From the NCBI GenBank assembly GCA_016870995.1, contig VFZU01000051.1, forward strand, positions 1-38,853: DNA of 38,853 nt, read 5' to 3'. Below, in pieces: positions 5,945-23,626 of the stretch. Position 1 is the stretch's first letter. The number at the start of each line of letters is the position of its first letter. The translations under genes and the position numbers were made by a program. A model generated the notes under the pieces. The model had not been told where the DNA came from. It was given only the letters and a program-made list of their open reading frames with translations, and made no database searches. The DNA is from Acidobacteriota bacterium (GTDB lineage: Bacteria; Acidobacteriota; Terriglobia; Bryobacterales; Bryobacteraceae).

Positions 5945-8900
5945 ATGGTAGCTGTGTTATTGATTCTTTCGTTCGCTGACCTCAAGCAGGATGCCGTCAT
6001 TGCCGGCTTCCGCGCCAAGGCCCTTTACAAGAACGGCATGGACCAGGCCATGGGTGGCCGCTTCATCCACGAAAAGACCGGCTTTACCCTCGATCTCATC
6101 GAGATCCAAACTGTCCCCCAAAGCTACGTCTGCGTCCACACCCATCCCACTTCCAATATGGGCGAGCCCCACACCCAGGAGCATCTCCTCCTCGGCAAAG
6201 GCAACGTCGGCCGCGCCGTCGCCGCCAAAGAATCCATGTCGATGGTTGAATCGACAGCCTTTACCCAACAGCTCAAAACTTGCTATCCCTTCGCTGCCAA
6301 CGCCGGCGTTGCATCCTTCTTCGAGCATTTCGAGCGATCCACGCACGCCCTGCTCAACCCCGACTACACCGACGAAGAAATCCGTCGCGAAGTCCGCAAC
6401 TTCGGCGTCAAGCCCGGCCCGGACGGCAAGCTTGAACTCGAGGAAAAAGGCACCATATACGCCGAAATGGTCAGCTCCAGCTCACAGCCCGGCTACAAGG
6501 CCTACCGTGCCATGGGCCGCCTGCTGCTCGGCCTTGAGCACCCGATGAGCTTCGATTCCGGCGGCGACCCCAAGTACATCCGCGAGATGAAGCCCGAGCA
6601 CATCCGCCGCTTCCACGCCGCCAACTACCATCTCGCCAACATCGAGATGATTACGAGCCTTCCCAAAGGCATGCCACTCGAAGAAGCCCTCGGCAGCTTC
6701 GACCGCATCCTCGTCAAGCTCCAGGGCAATCGACCCGTCCGCCCCGCCTCGACACTCAAAGATCTCCCCGCTCCCAGACCCGCCGCTGCGGGCTCAATCG
6801 AGATTGTCGAGTTCCCCTCAAAGAATCTTTCCCAGCCCGGCCCCGCCCAAATCGCCTGGCCGCTCCTGCCGCGCTTCGACATCAAAGACGAAGCACTGGC
6901 CGACCTCTTTGCCCAGGCCTTCGGCGGCGACCCTTCCACCAATCTCTACAAGCTCTTCATCGATTCAAAGACCCGCAAAACCGACATCGGCGCACGCTCT
7001 GCCGCCATGGGCTTCGATAACGAAACCTACGCCGGCTTCTCGATTTACGTCCCCGATCTCGCATCAGCCCAGGCCACTCCCGAGCGCCTCCGCGAAATCG
7101 AAACCCTCGTCAAAGCAGAGCTGGCAAGAGTCGCAAGCTGGCCCGACAACTCCCCGGATCTCCTCGAATTCAACGCCCGCATTCAAGCCAACATCCTCCG
7201 CCTCAAGCGAACTAGCGACAAGCTCACCAGTTCCCCGCCCGGCTTCGGCGGCCGCATGAGCCAAAGCATCTGGCCCAACCTCCTACGCGACTTAAACCTC
7301 GAACCCGGCTTCGAAAAATCCCTCCTGCAAAAAGACCTCTTCGCCTGGCTCGACACCGTCCTCGCCAGCGGCAAGAACATCTGGCGCGATCGCATCACTG
7401 CCTGGAAGCTCCTCGACACGCAAACCTACGCCGTTGCTGCACGAGCCTCTGCCACCCTCATCGAGAAGGAAGAAGCCGAATACGGCCAGCGCATCGCAGC
7501 CGAAGTGGAACGCCTCAAACAGGCTTACTCCGTCTCAAGCGATCAAGAAGCCATCCGCCGCTATCGCGACGAATACGATGCAGCCTCGGCCGAACTCGAC
7601 CGCGTCCAAAGCATGGACGCCCCCACGAAGTTCATGGATCAACCACCCATGACTCTCGACGATCAGCTCGATTACACCGTCAAGCAAGTCTCAGGCGGCA
7701 TCCCGCTCGTCACGGGCAAGTTCGCTGGCATGAGCAGCGCAACCATCGGCCTCGCCCTCAACGTCCGCGAACTGCAGGGCCGCCAGTGGATCTACGCCGC
7801 CATCCTCCCTTCACTTCTAGGCATCACCGGCGTCACAAAAGACGGCGAAACTCTCAGCTACGAAGACGCCATGCAACGCATGCGCCGCGAGATCCTCGGC
7901 GTCGGCGTTTCTTACTCAAGCAACCCCACCACCGGCCGGATGGAACTCAACATCACCGGCGCAGGCAACAACCTCGCAGAATCAAAAGCCGCCCTCGACT
8001 GGATGCGTGCCACCCTGTTCGCCCCCAACTGGTCCGCCAGCAATCTCAGCCGCATCCGCGACGTCGTCGATCAAACCATCAACGCCCTCCGCTCCACCAT
8101 GCAGCGCAGCGAAGAGAGTTGGGTGCAGGGCCCAGCCATGGCCTGGACTTATCAGGACGACGCCCTCTACTTCGGCTCCAGCAGCTTCCACGCCCAATTG
8201 CATCACCTCCATCGCCTCCGCTGGATGCTCAAGGATCCCGCCGACAACACCGTCCACGACGCAATCCTCGCGATGCTGACCTCACTCGAAAAGGTCTCTC
8301 ACCTGGTTTCAAAGGCAACCATGGATGAGCTCGTTCAAAAGCTGCCCGACTCCGCCAAGGCTCTCGGCGAAGACGCCGCCAAAGACCTGCTCTATCTCGA
8401 GAATGAACTCCCCGAATCCTCTCGCGATGCCGACTGGAAGTATCTTCTCCGCATCACCCGCGAAGACTTCCTCTCTCCGGCAACCCAGGCCCTTGCCGAG
8501 CTTGAAGCCGTCAGAAAACTCCTTCTCAAGCGCGGCAACGCCCGCATGCATCTCACCGCTTCACCCGAGAATGTGAGTGCACTCGAACCACTCCTCGCCG
8601 GCCTCGTCTCTGGCCTCTCAGAGGCCGCCCCCGGCCCAGCCGCCCCCAAGCAACCTCGCGGCATCGCCAAGCGCGTCATGGCCCGCGAGAAGCTCGAATC
8701 TGAACCTCAATTCGTTGCCCTGCTCGCTCCCAACATGGCCGGCGGCGTCCACCTGCACTCAGTCCCCGGCGTCGGCGTGCGCGACCTCAACGAAGAATCC
8801 GCACTCAAGTTTCTCGCCTACCGTTTGTACAGCGGCAGTGGCCCTCACGGCGTCTTCATGAAGACCTGGGCCGCCGGCCTCGCCTATTCGAACGGCCTTC

Positions 8901-15980: not shown

Positions 15981-16055
15981 CTGGGAGATCGTCTAACGGT
16001 AGGACAGCAGATTCTGACTCTGCTTATCGGGGTTCGAATCCCTGTCTCCCAGCCA
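15981..16055 (+). tRNA. tRNA-Gln (anticodon CTG)
   Basis: The 75-base sequence folds as a cloverleaf. The acceptor arms CTGGGAG and CTCCCAG pair fully. The D arm contains TAACGGTAGGAC. The anticodon stem GCAGA/TCTGC closes the loop TTCTGAC with anticodon CTG (reads CAG, glutamine). The T arm contains GGTTCGAATCC. The CCA end is encoded at 16053-16055. It follows the ppx-like gene by 13 bases, so it either has its promoter inside that gene or is processed from its transcript. Confidence 0.95.
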
Positions 16056-16063
16056 ATTCCTCT

Positions 16064-16960
16064 CTAATTCCTCCAGTTCAACCCCACCGCATCCAATTGA
16101 ATCCGGCTAATCCGATCCCGCGCGCTCATCTCCAATTCGATGATCCCGAACATCCCGCTGCCCCTTACATCCGCATAAACCCGTCGGCCATCGCGACGAT
16201 CGACCCGGCCAAAGAATTCGATGTTGCCATCTTCGCTCTGAAAGCTGATGCTGACCTGCCCGTTGCTTGCGATATTCACGCGAGCTCGATCCAGGCGGCG
16301 CGTGCTCCCGTTACGGTCTCGGTAGCTACCAGAGCTACGCCCGCCGCCCTCGAAATCGAAGTTGGCATTCGAGATCCATCCACTGCCATTGCCCCAGCCG
16401 TTATTCCAGCCATTGTTCCAACTGCTGTTCGAATCATTCTCGTACCCGCCGCTCCCCGGCCGATTCCCTCCACCAATGTAGCCTCCGCCTCCAGGACGGT
16501 TGCCGGGGCGATTGTTGTTGTCGTTACCAAAGATACTGCCGCCGCCTCCGCCGCCAAACCCGCCCCCGCTGCCACGCCAGAAGATATCGAACGTATAGCC
16601 TTGCCCACCGCCCTTGTTGTCTTCGATTCGCACGATCGCCCGCCCGCCATTCTCAGCCGACCGCAGCAATTCCTGCCGCCCTCGTCCGTCGATCCCCTTG
16701 AACCGGAAGTCCACCGGCCGATTCGGCATCGCCTGGTTGCAAACGAACCGCCGGATTGTAGCTGGCGACCCGTTAATGGTTCGGATCGACATATTGCTGC
16801 CGAAGATATCCACTTCCGCCACATCGTCCACCCACACTTCGATTGTGCATTTCCCTTCACCTCCACCTCCACGGATGTCAGCGCTGCGTTGATCGGTAAC
16901 ACTTTGCCCATTCAGGCTCACGATGGAAAGGGTCGCGATAAAGAGAATTTGCTTTTTCAT
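16064..16960 (-). CDS. Secreted Gly/Asn-rich protein of unknown function
   Basis: I set the start at the ATG at 16960, giving 298 residues with a clear signal peptide (MKKQILFIATLSIVSLNGQS). The open frame runs 74 codons further upstream without family resemblance. Three regions are visible: an N-terminal domain of about 100 residues (KCTIEVWVDDVAEVDIFG ... RRFVCNQAMP, two Cys that could form a disulphide), a low-complexity Gly/Asn/Pro/Trp segment with NRPG and NNGW repeats at roughly 130-200, and a C-terminal beta-rich domain (VNIASNGQVSISFQSEDGNIEFFGRVDRRDGRRVYADV). The last part could bind a surface or a polymer, but I do not recognise the family. The stop codon lies 8 bases from the tRNA 3' end, convergently. 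Confidence 0.8.
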   Translation of the reverse strand: MKKQILFIATLSIVSLNGQSVTDQRSADIRGGGGEGKCTIEVWVDDVAEVDIFGSNMSIRTINGSPATIRRFVCNQAMPNRPVDFRFKGIDGRGRQELLRSAENGGRAIVRIEDNKGGGQGYTFDIFWRGSGGGFGGGGGGSIFGNDNNNRPGNRPGGGGYIGGGNRPGSGGYENDSNSSWNNGWNNGWGNGSGWISNANFDFEGGGRSSGSYRDRNGSTRRLDRARVNIASNGQVSISFQSEDGNIEFFGRVDRRDGRRVYADVRGSGMFGIIELEMSARDRISRIQLDAVGLNWRN

Positions 16961-17080
16961 GGCTTGGCTGACCACAAGTTTAACTGAGCCCCACACTGCT
17001 TGCCGAAAAGCACCACCCTCATAATCCACACAAAAGTGTTTGTTGTCGAATGCATAAATTCTTTTGAGAAGGGATTCATT

Positions 17081-17108
17081 TTGGAACCAGATTTTATTGG
17101 TGTATGCT
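17081..17108 (+). promoter_or_regulatory. Candidate sigma-70 promoter of the cNMP/DUF294 operon
   Basis: TTGGAA at 17081-17086 and TATGCT at 17103-17108 are separated by 16 bases and lie about 60 bases upstream of the ATG at 17166. The 205-base divergent region 16961-17165 must also hold the promoter of the minus-strand secreted protein; I see no second strong match there. Confidence 0.35.
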
Positions 17109-17165
17109 CGGTGGTCACTCGTCTCTGACACGCCCCTGTTCGCCCCGTTCGTTTGCTCCAAACAA

Positions 17166-18743
17166 ATGAAAACTTCCGTCATCCGTCAACGCGTGGCTGA
17201 CTTCCTTCGCTGCCATGTCCCTTTCGATTCCTTGGCCCCGCAAGACCTCCTCGACCTTGCAGGCAGCGGCAAGGTGAGGTTCCATCAAAGCGAAGAATAC
17301 GTCCAGATGAAAGGGGACAAGCCCAACCCGCTGATATGGGTTGTCCAACAGGAACGTCTGGAGGTGATGCGGGAATCGGCAGGCAGCGAGGCCCTCGTTG
17401 ATGTTTTGGGTGAAGGGGATTTGATTGGCCTCGAACAATTTTCGGGCGATGGCATTTGCCAGCACTCCATACGAACGCTGGGAGACGTTCTCCTCTATGG
17501 TGTCGATGCCAAAGCCTTTCAGGCCTTGTCAAAACGCTACGTCGAGGTTCAACGGTTTCTTCAGGCCGGCTTTTCCATCGAGACACAGCTCGGCCTCAAG
17601 CGCACTTCCTGGCTCGATGCCGAACCGCCTCCCTCCAGCTTTCTCGCCGCCCGCGCAAAACGCCTGCAGCTTTCCGCCCAACAAGAGCTGAGTTCTCCGA
17701 TCGAAACTCGTCGCTTCCTCACGGAGATGTTGCACCGCGAGGTCGACACAGTAAAGATCTCAGGCAGTGCGAAAGTAGTCAGATCTTCTGATATCGCTTT
17801 GTTCTGCGGCTACGATCCCCCACGCTTGGTCCGTGAAATCGAAGCCTCTGATTCCCAGGAAGAATTGGAGCCTCTGCTCAGGCTCTCCCGGCGCATGGTA
17901 CGCGAAGCCATGGCCGAGCCTCAGGATATTGCTGATTGCCACTTGATAGCCTCTGCGATCACAGATAGCGCCATCAAGGCTGCGATCCGCATAGCCGACG
18001 CCCAATCAAGCCTCTGCTGGACCGTTTTCGGTGCGGCCGCGCGCATGGATCTGCCCTACCCGCAACTGCCATCACTCGCTTGCATCGGCGACGGCGAGCC
18101 CGCCGTGGCATCTTCGCTGCGCACCTTTGGCCTGCCTGGCCAGGAGATGCCTTGGCCACAAGGCCTGGAGCGTCCTCGCTCTCTCGACGACTGGCTCAAC
18201 TTCTTCTCACAAACTCTTGCCGATCCGCTGGAAAACTCGATTTATCTTCGCCGCGAGTGGTTCGACATGCGAGCCGTCGGCAGCGCACCGGCCATGGCTG
18301 ATAAATTACAAAGCCACATCGCGGCCCAGCTCAAAGACAATGAACTTGCAATTGCGCTGCTGGCCAACGATACCCTCGATCATCTGCCGCCATTGACCTT
18401 CTTTGAAGGCCTCGTCGTAGGGCTCGATGGTTCCCGCCGTGAGAGTTTTGATATCGAAAAAACCATCGTCGAGCCCATCGCCGATGCCGCGCGAGTCTTC
18501 GCCCTCGCCACCGGCCGGCTCGAACGTCCGTCAACCCTTGAGAGGCTTAAAGATGCCGGCGAATTCTTTCGTGAAGCGGCCGAGGCCTTTCGCATTGGCG
18601 TCCACCACCAAGCCTTGGCAGGCAGCCGCATGATCCATCCCGGCAAGCTCGGCAAACTCGATCAAAAACTTCTCAAAACTGCGATTGCTTCCGTGCAGCG
18701 TTTGTTGGCCCATACCGTGCGCACATTTGTGGAGGGGCAGTGA
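17166..18743 (+). CDS. cNMP-binding/DUF294 signalling protein with degenerate nucleotidyltransferase site
   Basis: From the ATG at 17166 the protein has 525 residues; the extra 34 residues of the longer frame span the likely promoter. Residues about 10-125 form a cyclic-nucleotide-binding-like beta barrel (DVLGEGDLIGLEQFSG). The middle and C-terminal parts match the DUF294 nucleotidyltransferase and its C-terminal helical partner (ATGRLERPSTLERL). Typical relatives also have a CBS pair between these parts and are about 600 residues long; here it is missing. The nucleotidyltransferase motif, normally G-S-x-G-R then D-x-D, reads GAAAR (289-293), and no D-x-D follows in PYPQLPSLACI, so catalysis is unlikely. 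The stop overlaps the next gene's GTG (GTGA); DUF294 proteins are often paired with a DnaQ-like exonuclease, as here. Confidence 0.82.
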   Translation: MKTSVIRQRVADFLRCHVPFDSLAPQDLLDLAGSGKVRFHQSEEYVQMKGDKPNPLIWVVQQERLEVMRESAGSEALVDVLGEGDLIGLEQFSGDGICQHSIRTLGDVLLYGVDAKAFQALSKRYVEVQRFLQAGFSIETQLGLKRTSWLDAEPPPSSFLAARAKRLQLSAQQELSSPIETRRFLTEMLHREVDTVKISGSAKVVRSSDIALFCGYDPPRLVREIEASDSQEELEPLLRLSRRMVREAMAEPQDIADCHLIASAITDSAIKAAIRIADAQSSLCWTVFGAAARMDLPYPQLPSLACIGDGEPAVASSLRTFGLPGQEMPWPQGLERPRSLDDWLNFFSQTLADPLENSIYLRREWFDMRAVGSAPAMADKLQSHIAAQLKDNELAIALLANDTLDHLPPLTFFEGLVVGLDGSRRESFDIEKTIVEPIADAARVFALATGRLERPSTLERLKDAGEFFREAAEAFRIGVHHQALAGSRMIHPGKLGKLDQKLLKTAIASVQRLLAHTVRTFVEGQ

Positions 18744-19366
18744 GCTGGTCCGATTCCACACCCGTCGAACAGGTTCGCTTTGTCGTTCTTGACACCGAAA
18801 CCACTGGATTCGATGCAAGGCGCGACCGCATCATCACCATTGGCGCTCTCGCCATCGTGAATGGTGAAATGCTGCTTGAAGACAGCTTCGAGGTCATGCT
18901 GCCGATCGCATACAACAACTCCTCGGTAACGGTTCACGGCATCACCCGAGACCAGGCCCGCGAAGGCATGGACGAAGACGAGGCCCTCAAGCTGTTCTTC
19001 GACTACTTGGGCGACGGCGTCATTGTCGGCCACCACATCGGCCACGACATCGAAGCGCTCAACGTCGCAGGGGAACGCCATTTCGGCATGCGCGTCACCA
19101 ACCGCCGGATCGACACGATGGATCTCACTCTCATCCTCGAACGCGATGGTGCTTTCGCTGGGCGGCAACTCCCGCAAGGCTACACTCTCGATACTCTTTG
19201 CGAAATGTTCGGCGTAGCCGCTCACGATCGCCACACCGCCGGAGGCGATGCCTTCCTCACAGCTCAAGTCTTCCTTCGCCTTCTCAAGGCGGCCAGAAAC
19301 GTCGGCCGCATTACTCTCGCTGCCATCTCTGAACAATTCCTTGCCGATGATAAAGTGAGGCCATGA
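18740..19366 (+). CDS. 3'-5' exonuclease, DnaQ/DEDDh family
   Basis: The 208-residue protein starts at a GTG that overlaps the previous stop. Exo I has Asp18 and Glu20 in VLDTETTGFD, Exo II has Asp103 in GHHIGHDIEALN, and Exo III has His165 and Asp170 in HDRHTAGGDAF, giving a complete DEDDh set. These bind two metal ions and remove nucleotides from 3' ends. It is a stand-alone exonuclease domain rather than a polymerase fusion, and the pairing with a cNMP/DUF294 protein is the usual context of this subgroup, whose biological role is unclear. Its last bases overlap the start of galM (ATGA). Confidence 0.9.
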   Translation: MSWSDSTPVEQVRFVVLDTETTGFDARRDRIITIGALAIVNGEMLLEDSFEVMLPIAYNNSSVTVHGITRDQAREGMDEDEALKLFFDYLGDGVIVGHHIGHDIEALNVAGERHFGMRVTNRRIDTMDLTLILERDGAFAGRQLPQGYTLDTLCEMFGVAAHDRHTAGGDAFLTAQVFLRLLKAARNVGRITLAAISEQFLADDKVRP

Positions 19367-20424
19367 AGACAGCACTACTTTTCTTATCTCTTACAACGCT
19401 GTTGCTGGCGCAGACTCCGAAAACGTTCACCCTGAAAAACAAGGCGGGGATGGAAGCCGTAATCACAAACTACGGCGGGATCCTGATGAGCTTGAAGGTT
19501 CCCAATCGCGCCGGCAAACTGGAGGACGTAGTTCTCGGCTTCGACAAGCCTGAAGATTACATCGCCAAAAAGGAGCATCCCTATTTCGGCGCTCTGGTTG
19601 GCCGCTACGGGAATCGCATCGGCAAGGCTCAATTTACCGTCGACGGCAAAAATTACAAGCTAGCCGCAAACAACGGCCCCAACTCCTTGCATGGCGGCAT
19701 TGTTGGCTTCGACAAGAAATTCTGGACCGCCCGCCAAAGCGGCAATGTCCTCACCCTCGAACTGGTCAGCAAGGACATGGAAGAAGGCTTCCCCGGCGAG
19801 TTGCGCGTAAAGGTCACCTACACCCTGGCCGACAACAACTCCCTCCGCATCGACTATCTCGCCACAACCAATAAGCCCACCGTGTTGAACCTCACCAATC
19901 ACAGCTACTTCAACCTCGGTGGCAACGCCACCAAGCACGTCATGGGTCACGTACTCATGCTCAAAGCCTCCATGTTCACCCCAGTCGATAAGGACCTGAT
20001 CCCCACCGGTGAGTTGAAGTCCGTCGCTGGCACACCCTTCGATTTCACCAAGCCCACCCCCATCGGTTTTCGCATCGATCAACCCGACGAACAGCTTAAG
20101 ATGGGCGGCGGCTATGACCACAACTTCGTCTTCGACAAAGACATCACCGCGCAGCCTCAACTCGTGGCCGAAGTCTATGACCCAGCCTCCGGGCGCCTCA
20201 TGGATGTCCTCACCACCGAGCCCGGCGTGCAGCTATACACATCGAATTTCCTCGATGGTTCTATCTCAGGCAAGGGCGGAGTCAAATACGAAAAGCGCCA
20301 CGCATTTTGCCTTGAGACCCAGCACTTCCCCGATTCCCCCAACAAGCCGGCCTTCCCTTCAACCACCTTGCTCCCAGGCAGCACCTACAAGAGCGCAACG
20401 ATCTTTCAATTTCGTGTGAGGTAA
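19363..20424 (+). CDS. galM: Aldose 1-epimerase (mutarotase), exported
   Basis: The 353-residue protein has a signal peptide (MKTALLFLSLTTLLLAQ) and a galactose-mutarotase fold. Conserved points are GRYGNRIGKAQF, the substrate His in NSLHGG, the catalytic His in LTNHSYFNLGG and the catalytic Glu in CLETQHFPDSPN. The enzyme interconverts alpha and beta anomers of hexoses; the signal peptide places it outside the cytoplasm. Its ATG overlaps the exonuclease stop, an odd pairing that may reflect only operon packing. The final 30 or so codons exist in two further degenerate copies downstream (about 20647-20730 and 20989-21081). Confidence 0.93.
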   Translation: MKTALLFLSLTTLLLAQTPKTFTLKNKAGMEAVITNYGGILMSLKVPNRAGKLEDVVLGFDKPEDYIAKKEHPYFGALVGRYGNRIGKAQFTVDGKNYKLAANNGPNSLHGGIVGFDKKFWTARQSGNVLTLELVSKDMEEGFPGELRVKVTYTLADNNSLRIDYLATTNKPTVLNLTNHSYFNLGGNATKHVMGHVLMLKASMFTPVDKDLIPTGELKSVAGTPFDFTKPTPIGFRIDQPDEQLKMGGGYDHNFVFDKDITAQPQLVAEVYDPASGRLMDVLTTEPGVQLYTSNFLDGSISGKGGVKYEKRHAFCLETQHFPDSPNKPAFPSTTLLPGSTYKSATIFQFRVR

Positions 20425-20427
20425 GCC

Positions 20428-20589
20428 ATGGACGAAATCATCGAACCCATTGAGAAAGCCGCAGAAGCGGTTTCGCAAAAGATGACGGAAGTAGCCCGGG
20501 ATCTCCACAAGAATCTCGATGCCGAATCGGTTCTCGATGCGGCTCTTGATGTCGGATCCCTGGTCGCCGAGGTTCTTTCGAGCGACTAG
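20428..20589 (+). CDS. Small ORF, copy 1 (53 residues, unknown)
   Basis: ATG at 20428 is preceded by GAGGT (20418-20422) and lies 3 bases after the galM stop. The product begins MDEIIEPIEKAAEAVSQKM and ends ALDVGSLVAEVLSSD. It is acidic and predicted to be largely helical and amphipathic, without a signal peptide or cysteines. Copy 2 downstream shares its start (MDE-I-x-P-x-E-x-x-A-x-A-x-S). No function is recognised. Coupling to galM suggests it is translated. Confidence 0.55.
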   Translation: MDEIIEPIEKAAEAVSQKMTEVARDLHKNLDAESVLDAALDVGSLVAEVLSSD

Positions 20590-20738
20590 CTTCGCTTCCG
20601 GCGCACAGTGCTGAACACATCAGCCCCGAGCGACAAAGCGGAAGCCTATGAGTCGGCTCTCCCCTCCACCACCTCGCTCTCAGGCAGCACCCATCAGAGC
20701 TCTACTATTTCTCGATTTCGGGCAGCATAAGATCAGTC

Positions 20739-20927
20739 ATGGACGAAATGATTCAGCCTCTCGAGCAAATCGCCCACGCAACTTCAGAAGCCGCTTCCAA
20801 CTCGTCGAATGAAGCCAAGGGTAGTTCGGATGAATTCAAGCCGCCTAGCCTAATTGCCGAAGTTGGCTGGTTTGCCGTCGATTCGGTAGTGTCAGCTGCG
20901 GTAGAAGCCGTCTGGTTAATCATCTAG
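20739..20927 (+). CDS. Small ORF, copy 2 (62 residues, unknown)
   Basis: The product starts MDEMIQPLEQIAHATSEAAS, clearly related to copy 1, continues with a Ser/Asn-rich linker, and ends in a hydrophobic stretch (LIAEVGWFAVDSVVSAAVEA, then VWLII) that could be a membrane-associated helix. It starts 8 bases after the stop of the second galM-tail copy. The Shine-Dalgarno site is weaker than in copy 1. No function is recognised. Confidence 0.5.
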   Translation: MDEMIQPLEQIAHATSEAASNSSNEAKGSSDEFKPPSLIAEVGWFAVDSVVSAAVEAVWLII

Positions 20928-21082
20928 CGCCTTCGCGGCCGATCCAAACGGAGCAACTCCTCGTCAACTGCATGTGGGAAAATTTTCACGCCCCGATTCC
21001 CACAACAACCAAGCCTTCCCAACCACCTTGCTGCATTCGGGGAGCACTTGCAAGAGCTCGACCAATTTCAATTTCGCGCACG

Positions 21083-21199
21083 ATGAACTTCGGGATGAAA
21101 CGTTTAGCTGAGCCTCCTCGGAATTTCGCCGAAGTTTCGTCCTTCGTTGGTGAAGTCTCTGAGGCGATCGTTAGCGTTTTCTCGGCCGAACAAAGCTGA
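21083..21199 (+). CDS. Small ORF, copy 3 (38 residues, possibly decayed)
   Basis: ATG at 21083 sits in the position of the other two small-ORF starts after the third galM-tail copy, but the MDE start is lost (MNFGMKRLAEPPRNF). The end, AEVSSFVGEVSEAIVSVF, recalls the C-terminal hydrophobic part of copy 2 (AEVGWFAVDSVVSAAVEAVW). It overlaps the 3' end of the convergent adenylate kinase gene by 29 bases. It may be a remnant. Confidence 0.35.
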   Translation: MNFGMKRLAEPPRNFAEVSSFVGEVSEAIVSVFSAEQS

Positions 21200-21854
21200 A
21201 CGACTCTACTTCAAGCGATTGCCGGATCGAATCAAACACCGCATCCGGACTTTGATTCGCATCCACATGCACAACCTTCCCTGAACCCGGAATCTCGTAA
21301 AAATTGAGCACCGGGTCCGTCACCCGCTTATACGCATCCAGCCGGCACAACGCCGTAGCCACCGTATCGTCTTTGCGCTGGCATAGCTTCATGCCATCGT
21401 GATCGCAGTGAAACTTACGCTTCGGCGGCTTCGTGATTGTGTTGTAAATCGTTCCACAAACAGGGCAGCCCCATCGCGCACTCAACCGCCCAACCAGAAT
21501 TTCGTCCGGCACATCCATATGAATCAGAGTGGGAGCTTGAAACCCAAGTTGCTCCAGGATGTTGCTCAAGTGCGAAGCCTGCTCAACCGTTCTCGGATAC
21601 CCGTCAATCAGAAAACCGTCCCGGCAATCAGCCTCCGCGAGCCGTGCCTCAAGCAGTCGATTGACGATCTCGTCGGGCACCAGCTTCCCAGCCGCCAACA
21701 ACCCGTCGATATAGCGCCCCGTGTCGGAATGCGTTTCGCATTCCCGGCGCAACATATCTCCGGTCGAAATAGCAGGAATGCCAAGCCGGTCGCGTAACAG
21801 CGGCGACTGAGTTCCCTTACCGCAACCTGGCGGCCCGAACAATAGAAGTACCAC
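21171..21854 (-). CDS. adk: Adenylate kinase (nucleoside monophosphate kinase)
   Basis: The 227-residue protein starts at a GTG and has the P-loop GPPGCGKGTQ, the AMP-binding STGDMLRRE segment, the conserved DGYPRTVEQ and a long LID with zinc-type cysteines (CPVC and HCDHDG). It converts ATP and AMP to two ADP. The tail (SFSFVRPRKR) is longer than usual and overlaps small ORF copy 3 on the other strand. It is not beside secY or ribosomal protein genes, where the housekeeping adk often lies, so it may be a second copy; the window cannot show this. Confidence 0.88.
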   Translation of the reverse strand: MVLLLFGPPGCGKGTQSPLLRDRLGIPAISTGDMLRRECETHSDTGRYIDGLLAAGKLVPDEIVNRLLEARLAEADCRDGFLIDGYPRTVEQASHLSNILEQLGFQAPTLIHMDVPDEILVGRLSARWGCPVCGTIYNTITKPPKRKFHCDHDGMKLCQRKDDTVATALCRLDAYKRVTDPVLNFYEIPGSGKVVHVDANQSPDAVFDSIRQSLEVESFSFVRPRKR

Positions 21855-21976
21855 GTGATTACTCCGAAAAGACCCCGCATAAGAGCGGCTCTCTGAGAGT
21901 AAACCTAGTTTGCTCCGCCGTCAATGGTACGTTTCAGAATGATGACAACCGCCAAGCGGGTACAATGAGGGATTCC

Positions 21977-23626
21977 ATGCGCATTGCTCTCGCGCAAATC
22001 AACACTACAGTAGGCGACTTCGGCGCTAACCGCGCGAAGATCTTCGACTATGCACGCCGCGCCGCCGAGGCTGGTGCTCGTGTGGTGCTGTTCCCTGAAC
22101 TTTGCCTCACCGGCTATCCCCCACGCGATCTCGTCGAAAAGCCATCCTTCCTCGCCCGCGCTGAAGCCGAAGTCGCTCTCATCGCAGCAGAAACAGCCGA
22201 CCTTGCTCTGCACCTCATCATCGGCTCCGTTGCACCCTCCCACCAGGCCGCCGGCAAGAAAGTACTCAACACCGCGGTGGTCCTCTACCAGGGCCGCGAA
22301 GTCTTCCGTCAAACCAAGATGTTGCTGCCCACCTACGACGTCTTCGACGAGGGCCGCTACTTCTACTCCGCAGAATCGCAATCTCTGCTGCTGATCGACG
22401 GCACTCCTGTCGCTCTCACCGTCTGCGAAGACACCTGGAACCAAAAGCAGATCTTCGCGCAGCCCCTCTACGACCGCGATCCGATCAGCGAACTCAAAGC
22501 CCAGGGCGCACGCCTGCTACTCAGCATCAACGCCAGCCCCTTCGAAATCGGCAAACGCGACCTCCGCCGCGAATTGTTCCGCACCATTGCCCGTCAACAC
22601 GGCCTGCCCTGCGTCTACGTCAATTCCGTCGGTGGCAACGACCATCTCGTCTTCGACGGCTCCAGCTTCGCGATGGACGCGAGCGGTGAACTCATCGCCG
22701 AATCGCCCAGCTTCGCTGAAAACCTTAGCTATTGCGATCTCGACACGAGTGTTGGCGACCGCGCAGCCTCTCACCCTGACGAAATCGAAGCCGCCTATGA
22801 AGCCCTCGTCGTCGGCACTCGCGACTACGTGACCAAGTGCGGCTTCAAACGAGTCCTCATCGGTTTATCTGGTGGCATCGATTCCTCCATCGTCGCCTGC
22901 ATTGCCGTCGAAGCCTTCGGTCGCGAAAACGTCATGGGCGTCGGCATGCCCGGGCCGTATTCTTCCGACCACTCCCTCACAGACGCCCGCGAGATGGCCG
23001 AGCGCCTCGGCATCCGCTTTGAAGTCTCCTCCATCACGCCCGGCTACAACACGATGGTCGAGACCCTGCGCCCCCTGTTTGAGGGCTACCAGCCCGACGC
23101 TACCGAGGAAAACATCCAGAGCCGCCTTCGCGGCCTCACCCTCATGGCGCTCTCCAACAAGTACGGAGCGCTCGTCCTCACAACAGGCAACAAATCCGAA
23201 CTCGCCGTTGGCTATTGCACTCTCTACGGCGACATGTGCGGCGGCCTCGCCGTCATCTCGGACGTTCCCAAAACCATGGTCTACGATCTCTGCCGCGTCG
23301 CGAACCGGCGCCTCAGCGACCCCATCCCGGAGAACGTTTTCATCAAGCCGCCCTCGGCTGAACTCCGGCCCGATCAGACCGACCAGGATTCGTTGCCACC
23401 CTATGATGTTCTCGACCGGATCTTGAAGGGCTACATTGAGCGCTTCGAGTCTCCGTCGGAAATTGCCAAGCGGGAAGATCTTCCCCTCGATCTGGTGCGT
23501 GAGATCGCGAGGAAGGTAGACCTCAATGAATACAAACGCCAGCAGGCCGCACCGGGCCTCAAGGTAACGTCGAAGGCCTTTGGGATGGGCCGCCGCTTCC
23601 CGATCGCACAGCGATATCGGGAATAA
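21977..23626 (+). CDS. nadE: Glutamine-dependent NAD+ synthetase
   Basis: The start is the ATG at 21977 (549 residues), preceded by GAGGG at 21967-21971; the ATG at 21965 overlaps that site. The N-terminal nitrilase-like glutaminase domain has the triad Glu41 (FPELCLTGYPPRDL), Lys114 (RQTKMLLPTYDVFDEG) and Cys150 (VALTVCEDTWN). It releases ammonia that is passed to the C-terminal synthetase domain. That domain begins near residue 275 with the ATP pyrophosphatase motif SGGIDSS (298-304) and contains LTTGNKSELAVGYCTLYGDM. The enzyme makes NAD+ from deamido-NAD+. Full length, no abnormality. Confidence 0.95.
   Translation: MRIALAQINTTVGDFGANRAKIFDYARRAAEAGARVVLFPELCLTGYPPRDLVEKPSFLARAEAEVALIAAETADLALHLIIGSVAPSHQAAGKKVLNTAVVLYQGREVFRQTKMLLPTYDVFDEGRYFYSAESQSLLLIDGTPVALTVCEDTWNQKQIFAQPLYDRDPISELKAQGARLLLSINASPFEIGKRDLRRELFRTIARQHGLPCVYVNSVGGNDHLVFDGSSFAMDASGELIAESPSFAENLSYCDLDTSVGDRAASHPDEIEAAYEALVVGTRDYVTKCGFKRVLIGLSGGIDSSIVACIAVEAFGRENVMGVGMPGPYSSDHSLTDAREMAERLGIRFEVSSITPGYNTMVETLRPLFEGYQPDATEENIQSRLRGLTLMALSNKYGALVLTTGNKSELAVGYCTLYGDMCGGLAVISDVPKTMVYDLCRVANRRLSDPIPENVFIKPPSAELRPDQTDQDSLPPYDVLDRILKGYIERFESPSEIAKREDLPLDLVREIARKVDLNEYKRQQAAPGLKVTSKAFGMGRRFPIAQRYRE

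Follow-up and report, generated by a model that had tools for sequence, protein, structure and literature searches.

Probable double tandem duplication of a convergent galM-adk gap carrying a lineage-restricted small gene in an Acidobacteriota genome

Introduction

Partial tandem duplication can leave both genes that flank the duplicated stretch intact. Rearrangements in Salmonella chemostat cultures, duplications included, show microhomologies at their junctions (PMC3411829); at the locus presented below, the junctions between units are too diverged for microhomology to be called by eye. Taxonomically restricted small genes offer a second comparison, and ribosome profiling has found such genes in intergenic positions of E. 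coli O157:H7 (PMC5597208). The small ORF discussed here is likewise short, easily left unannotated, fast evolving and without relatives found beyond a narrow clade, whereas it is known from sequence alone, is fixed between two convergent genes and has been amplified in tandem in one genome.

The stretch of DNA analysed, referred to as the window, is a contig of 38,853 nucleotides (C51) from a 5.7 Mb draft assembly of an Acidobacteriota bacterium in 215 contigs. An earlier note on this DNA had proposed that a small gene was amplified twice together with a leader formed by the galM 3' end, and that the copies then diverged. Our preferred reading, to which we give a probability of about 0.75, is that the whole galM-adk gap was duplicated in tandem, twice, with a lineage-restricted and possibly coupled small gene and with the tails of both flanking genes. 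A literature search by title or abstract start found no paper on a galM-adk small-gene locus.

Results

Organization of the galM-adk locus

The galM gene (aldose 1-epimerase) occupies 19363-20424 on the + strand and matches PF01263 with E 3.4e-96, passing the curated cut-off (322.6 bits against 27). It also scores above the cut-off of PRK11055 (321.2 against 240) and under that of TIGR02636 (342.9 against 397.65). Judged by eye, its N-terminal stretch looks like a signal peptide and the product is probably exported. Convergent with galM lies adk (adenylate kinase, 21171-21854, - strand, PF00406 E 3e-44). The gap between them consists of three units in the window, each opening with ~30 terminal galM codons followed by a small ORF. 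Units 1 and 2 close with an antisense copy of the final ~40-50 nt of adk, and unit 3 enters the real adk. The repeat unit is small, about 300-340 bp, with the last ~34 codons of galM at its left end and the final ~13-16 codons of adk at its right.

Unit 1 begins with the real galM end, tail 1 (20323-20424). The putative ancestral small gene, sORF1 (20428-20589, + strand, 53 aa), begins 3 nt past the galM stop with GAGG upstream; homologues at the same site in four of seven congeners and its substitution pattern mark it as such. It is followed by the first detached adk 3' end (20587-20628, - strand), recognized by Smith-Waterman alignment and by a whole-unit profile. In unit 2, a galM 3' end with an open frame (tail 2, 20637-20730, + strand, start approximate), found by the repeat finder, Smith-Waterman alignment and nhmmer, leads to sORF2 (20739-20927, + strand, 62 aa), probably a live paralogue of sORF1, and then to the second detached adk 3' end (20925-20974, - strand, Smith-Waterman). 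Unit 3 contains galM tail 3 (approximately 20984-21086, + strand), detected by nhmmer with the galM tails of relatives, and sORF3 (21083-21199, + strand, 38 aa), a probable decayed copy identified from the ORF list, protein comparison and alignment.

Three further observations concern the window. Beyond the sORF1 stop, the frame of tail 2 is open (20608-20730, from a GTG at 20608, 40 aa) and continues that of sORF1, so that a ribosome passing through this stop would join the tail peptide to sORF1. A 372-aa ORF on the - strand (16064-17182) has a long middle rich in glycine, asparagine and serine. A tRNA gene (15982-16052) is the sole Rfam match in the window at the gathering score.

The three galM tails and the two detached adk tails

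Over 70 nt, the repeat finder placed the second and third galM tails at 77% and 60% ungapped identity to the first. When whole units were compared by Smith-Waterman against 1000 dinucleotide shuffles, units 1 and 2 scored 104 (best shuffle 44), units 1 and 3 scored 95 (best shuffle 45) and units 2 and 3 scored 54 (best shuffle 48). A whole-unit DNA profile, built solely from four single-copy relatives without the window and run on the + strand, matched 20323-20629 (E 1.2e-25), 20992-21086 (E 6.8e-9), 21181-21262 (E 6.2e-5) and 20652-20967 (E 8.2e-5); its best match on that strand of the window outside the locus had E 0.1. The relatives' galM tails used alone as an nhmmer profile recovered tail 1 (E 5.5e-14), tail 3 (E 3.6e-9, 31.1 bits) and tail 2 (E 0.021, 9.3 bits). 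The three consecutive galM-tail copies reported in the earlier note are real, beyond chance: the tails align significantly and are recognized from outside the genome. A search of the source genome for further copies of the repeat returned none, the matches besides itself being four short ones with E 0.1-0.4.

The other end of the unit is marked by the adk tails in units 1 and 2, which were absent from the earlier account. These matches are short and were judged in 11 comparisons against single-letter shuffles, of which four had fewer than 10 in 1000 shuffles as good, two had 33 and 36, and five were null. Copy 1 matched the adk tail of relative L003 (score 35, 0/1000 shuffles as good), that of L002 (26, 6/1000), that of L004 (24, 33/1000) and the adk end of its own genome (22, 36/1000), and was null against L016 and against copy 2. 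Copy 2 matched its own adk end (39, 0/1000) and the L002 tail (30, 1/1000), and was not significant against L003, L004, L016 or copy 1; 556 of 1000 shuffles were as good as the match between the two copies. A profile of adk tails alone is too short to be informative, placing its best match in the window elsewhere (6398-6439, E 0.0084), ahead of the real adk end (E 0.022) and copy 1 (E 0.44), with copy 2 absent from its matches. In units 1 and 2 the whole-unit profile extends as far as model position 333; since its separate match at the real adk sets in at position 300, the final part of the match in those two units is adk-like.

In our judgement the adk tails in units 1 and 2 are very probably real. 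Both ends of the unit thus recur, the galM end firmly and the adk end by short and partly null comparisons, and the repeat appears to be the galM-adk intergenic stretch plus the tails of both genes. With adk tails present, the galM tail becomes one of two breakpoints inside the flanking genes. Breaks inside both genes explain why orphan galM tails stand without a galM while galM and adk are still whole.

Distribution among relatives

All eight genomes of the genus, including the source genome, have a galM match, and in all eight adk adjoins it convergently. Outside the genus, adk was beside galM in none of 22 fetched galM loci, which covered up to 1.5 kb on each side, some ended by contig ends, and were the best among the 175 genomes, out of 237 in the family, whose galM match reached E <= 1e-60. 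The galM-adk neighbourhood (18740-21854) therefore looks like a genus-level rearrangement.

Homologous small ORFs stand behind galM in four of the seven congeners, one in each: L002 (49 aa), L003 (63 aa), L004 (55 aa) and L016 (68 aa). Counting units in these relatives, as the earlier note had advised, gave one apiece, since each galM tail matched only itself on the + strand of its own fetched locus; the amplification is seen in the source genome only. In L002, L003 and L004 the small ORF overlaps the galM stop by 1 nt (TAATG), and a purine-rich AAGGT lies within the last codons of galM. The distance grows to +3 nt in the window and to +15 nt in L016, where coupling would be doubtful. At the other end, the stops of the small ORF and of adk are at most 4 nt apart in all four relatives, abutting in L003 and L004, overlapping by 4 nt in L002 and 4 nt apart in L016. 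Lengths range from 49 to 68 codons, with start and stop staying in one frame.

No small ORF of this family was seen between galM and adk in the other three congeners, nor was an alignable non-coding ancestral sequence of the kind that would point to a de novo origin. The galM and adk frames overlap by 8 nt at their stops in G002 (L017:4555-4562), the two stops lie 37 nt apart in G005, and in G001 (L007:2563-2977) they are 415 nt apart with no relative of the small ORF inside. In a galM tree, the five carriers and G002 fall into a single supported group without a resolved internal order; the carrier pattern takes two changes, possibly one gain and one loss. An adk tree, in which no branch is starred, joins G004 to G001 and G005, both non-carriers (81/88). 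This speaks against a single group of carriers, and the species orders of the two trees conflict.

Searching for homologues in acidobacterial genomes, another suggestion of the earlier note, placed the family in this one genus at E <= 0.001. Of 237 family genomes, five had a match to the small-ORF profile (A1) at that threshold, all of the genus and including the source (all E <= 6.9e-17), and of 396 genomes in a phylum-wide sample one did, the source itself; the first pass of these searches scored at most 26 candidates per genome in the family and at most 16 in the phylum. Weaker matches (E 0.005-0.1) occurred in seven other family genomes and at one further place in the source genome. One in G027 lies antisense in an ORF that looks by eye like a methyltransferase, and the one in the source genome sits where an unrelated ORF ends; both were judged to be chance. 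With sORF1 alone as query, E 0.001 was passed in only 2 of 8 genus genomes (the source and that of L004), indicating that the small ORF changes fast. The gene thus appears taxonomically restricted to a narrow clade at E <= 0.001.

The small ORFs and their coding signal

The 53- and 62-aa ORFs starting at 20428 and 20739 are present as previously described, and their proteins align with a Smith-Waterman score of 53 (0 of 1000 residue shuffles as good). The sORF2 protein also matches that of L003 (score 45, 0/1000 shuffles) and showed no significant match to those of L004 and L016. Its start and stop lie at places homologous to those of sORF1; tail 2 ends with TAA 8 nt upstream, and no clear ribosome site was found ahead of its start. 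A small ORF in every unit, as first proposed, holds firmly for two of the three. The 38-aa ORF at 21083 exists, but it is an inner start of a 75-aa ORF from 20972, and its ATG is not the homologous one: copies 1 and 2 have ATGGACGAA where copy 3 has about CGGGATGAA, with two alignments placing the gaps differently. Its protein resembles those of sORF1 and sORF2 weakly (equalled by 34 and 25 in 1000 shuffles), its frame apparently slips one base ahead of the old stop in an alignment-dependent manner, and it ends 29 nt within adk. It is probably a decayed copy that has lost its inherited start.

Evidence for selection on a protein varied with the pair compared. Over the first 22 codons of L003 and L004, third positions take 13 of the 22 changes; the in-frame pN/pS of 0.22 rises to 1.6 and 3.8 once the frame is shifted. 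Other pairs gave 0.38 to 0.94 over these codons (0.94 for L004/L002), sORF1/sORF2 gave 0.53 in frame against 0.55 and 1.7 shifted, and the third-position excess reached p < 0.05 in 4 of 10 pairs. At full length the excess reached p < 0.05 in 9 of 15 pairs, in a protein-guided alignment that leans towards constraint. Full-length pN/pS was 0.48-0.88, against 0.05-0.21 for galM, and dN/dS was 0.33-0.67 in the 7 of 15 pairs that were unsaturated (8 were saturated). The best pair shows a clear coding-type pattern of substitution, the others a mixed one. Finally, an ORF running from the galM end and filling the gap arose in 1.8-7.8% of shuffles per gap and is present in all six real gaps, with the qualification that gaps were cut at the ORF's own stop and that the species are non-independent. 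Taken together, the small ORF is probably a gene.

All six full proteins are acidic (net charge -8 to -13). AlphaFold2 models, resting on a six-row alignment and of modest confidence, predict two helices in sORF1 (5-28 and 32-51, mean pLDDT 72.5) and in sORF2 (5-27 and 37-61, mean pLDDT 64.5). No credible match to the family, known from five species at one site, came from the four profile libraries searched: matches to Pfam and NCBIfam fell far below cut-offs, PADLOC gave no match to the six proteins (sORF3 left out), and the best PHROG result, the L016 protein against a tape-measure protein at E 0.0016, was taken as composition. A PDB sequence search with the six-row profile returned 11 sequences at E <= 1. 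The top three are designed proteins (E 5.1e-6, 4.1e-5 and 9.2e-5) and the rest have E 0.11 or worse; the designed-protein matches are taken as helix-like composition.

Fate and age of the copies

Compared with six relatives (a seventh row, L017, at 0.26-0.36, was one codon out of register and omitted), tail 2 is 75% identical to its own galM and 42-58% identical to the galM of the others. Being nearest to its own galM, it points to a lineage-specific duplication. Against four relatives, tail 2 shows 17.2-23.2 non-synonymous differences and galM's own tail 8.7-17.2, with tail 2 higher in all four rows, while synonymous differences are similar (11.8-15.5 and 12.8-14.1). Extra change at non-synonymous but not synonymous sites makes tail 2 look like debris and not like a kept peptide, and constraint on this peptide appears to be gone or weakened. 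This runs against the tail being retained as a needed leader. The tail 1/tail 2 pair has pN/pS 0.46 in frame against 0.65 and 1.47 shifted, a value that would also arise with one constrained branch.

With substitutions only, the chance that an ORF like sORF2 stays intact is 28% at 0.1 changed sites, 15% at 0.15, 9% at 0.2 and 5% at 0.25. These rates make the survival of sORF2 suggestive, not proof, and sORF2 is plausibly alive. Between tails 1 and 2, pS is roughly 0.42 (8 of 19 sites), close to the 0.46-0.53 found between the whole galM genes of L002, L003 and L004, which suggests that the duplication is not recent.

Discussion

The arrangement invites the reading that the galM 3' end is a needed leader, and that its copies were kept as a portable termination-reinitiation device for sORF2 and sORF3. 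Consistent with this, tail 2 stays open in the frame of the sORF1 stop until its TAA, 8 nt before sORF2, the small ORF overlaps the galM stop by 1 nt in three relatives, and the tail 1/tail 2 pair has its lowest pN/pS in frame. A tail is expected anyway, however, once one break falls inside galM as the other falls inside adk; the non-synonymous excess in all four rows indicates that the tail 2 peptide has ceased to be maintained, the tail 3 frame passes the sORF3 start without meeting a stop, and some 15 nt would suffice where about 90 nt are present. We therefore regard a retained leader as unlikely. Some role of a tail in starting translation is possible, for tail 2 in particular; nothing in the data points to tails 2 and 3 working as leaders. 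Similarly unlikely is a fuller version, in which a genus-restricted small gene arose in the convergent gap with galM's last codons and stop as its start signal and was amplified with that signal into a galM-sORF1-tail2-sORF2 chain, where translated tails would pass ribosomes on and sORF1 and sORF2 would be diverged helical partners.

That the small ORFs are not genes, the gap being spacer DNA that is open by chance and its likeness across species residual DNA homology, also seems improbable, if the least so of the alternatives. Their pN/pS far above that of galM would fit spacer, as would a coding signal that is absent or ambiguous in several pairs (sORF1/sORF2 included), the want of a known family, the missing ribosome site before sORF2 and the lack of the ORF in three of seven congeners. 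Chance does not readily account for the best-aligned pair, where a third-position excess and a low in-frame pN/pS are reversed in the other frames, nor for six of six gaps filled from the galM end to the adk end by ORFs that vary in length and yet keep start and stop in one frame. Bidirectional terminators are common between convergent genes, and an RNA element, either a terminator or a small RNA, could be sought in the repeat instead of a protein gene. Within the repeat stretch there is no Rfam match at the gathering score, the fold energies of five segments are ordinary (z -0.75 to +1.37), and the lone terminator-like site in a scan of 19200-22100 falls inside galM; together with the protein-type substitutions of the best pair, this makes an RNA element very improbable. 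An artefact of misjoined or chimeric reads, conceivable in a draft of 215 contigs, is hardly credible: between the copies, 23% and 40% of ungapped sites are different and there are indels as well, beyond what a slip in assembly could generate, and the outer genes are intact.

On the preferred reading, the double tandem duplication of the gap, an ancestor would have had one small gene filling the convergent galM-adk gap, beginning where galM stops and ending where adk stops. On the line leading to this bacterium, a tandem duplication with breaks inside the galM end and the adk end would have copied the gap with both tails, and a second round would have produced three units, with the complete galM in the first and the complete adk in the last. 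Since the outermost genes stayed whole, these duplications need not have cost anything. The small gene of copy 2 would then have been kept or not yet lost and that of copy 3 would have decayed, the extra galM and adk tails being passive debris from the breakpoints. The gene, the double amplification and the divergence proposed in the earlier note thus survive in our account, but its unit also carries the adk 3' end and its leader becomes a breakpoint. Both outcomes that would have told against the note, tails that do not align and close relatives all lacking a small ORF behind galM, failed to appear.

As for function, sORF1 would share the mRNA of galM and be translated after reinitiation or from the purine-rich site in galM's last codons, to give an acidic two-helix protein of roughly 50-68 residues. 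Its most likely role would be that of a small accessory protein pairing with itself or with another protein, and the two acidic helices suggest a small binding partner. If galM is exported and the small protein has no evident signal, both judged by eye, a joint complex of the two is less obvious.

The locus resembles coupled co-directional gene pairs, translated by termination-reinitiation, in the distance from galM stop to small-ORF start (-1 nt in L002, L003 and L004, where stop and start share TAATG, and 3 nt in the window) and in the purine-rich site within the upstream gene's last codons in L002-L004. It departs from them in the 15 nt of L016, and coupling is here read from sequence. The orphan tails derive from the end of an aldose 1-epimerase (GalM, PF01263), yet each amounts to about 30 codons cut off from the remainder of the enzyme, and GalM function would not be expected in them. 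The closest likeness is to partial tandem duplication, with breaks inside genes, outer copies that keep the full genes and a middle copy with tails only; the differences are a unit of about 300-340 bp, copies 23-40% diverged and one extra small ORF that is still open. What we see is a commonplace process at work on a narrow small-gene family absent from the libraries searched. The locus offers a readable case in which a lineage-restricted small gene in a convergent gap was copied without harm to its neighbours, and in which open and decaying copies of the small gene stand side by side. It also carries a warning: copies of a gene tail beside small ORFs need not be leaders, and in this instance the opposite neighbour gave the simpler cause.
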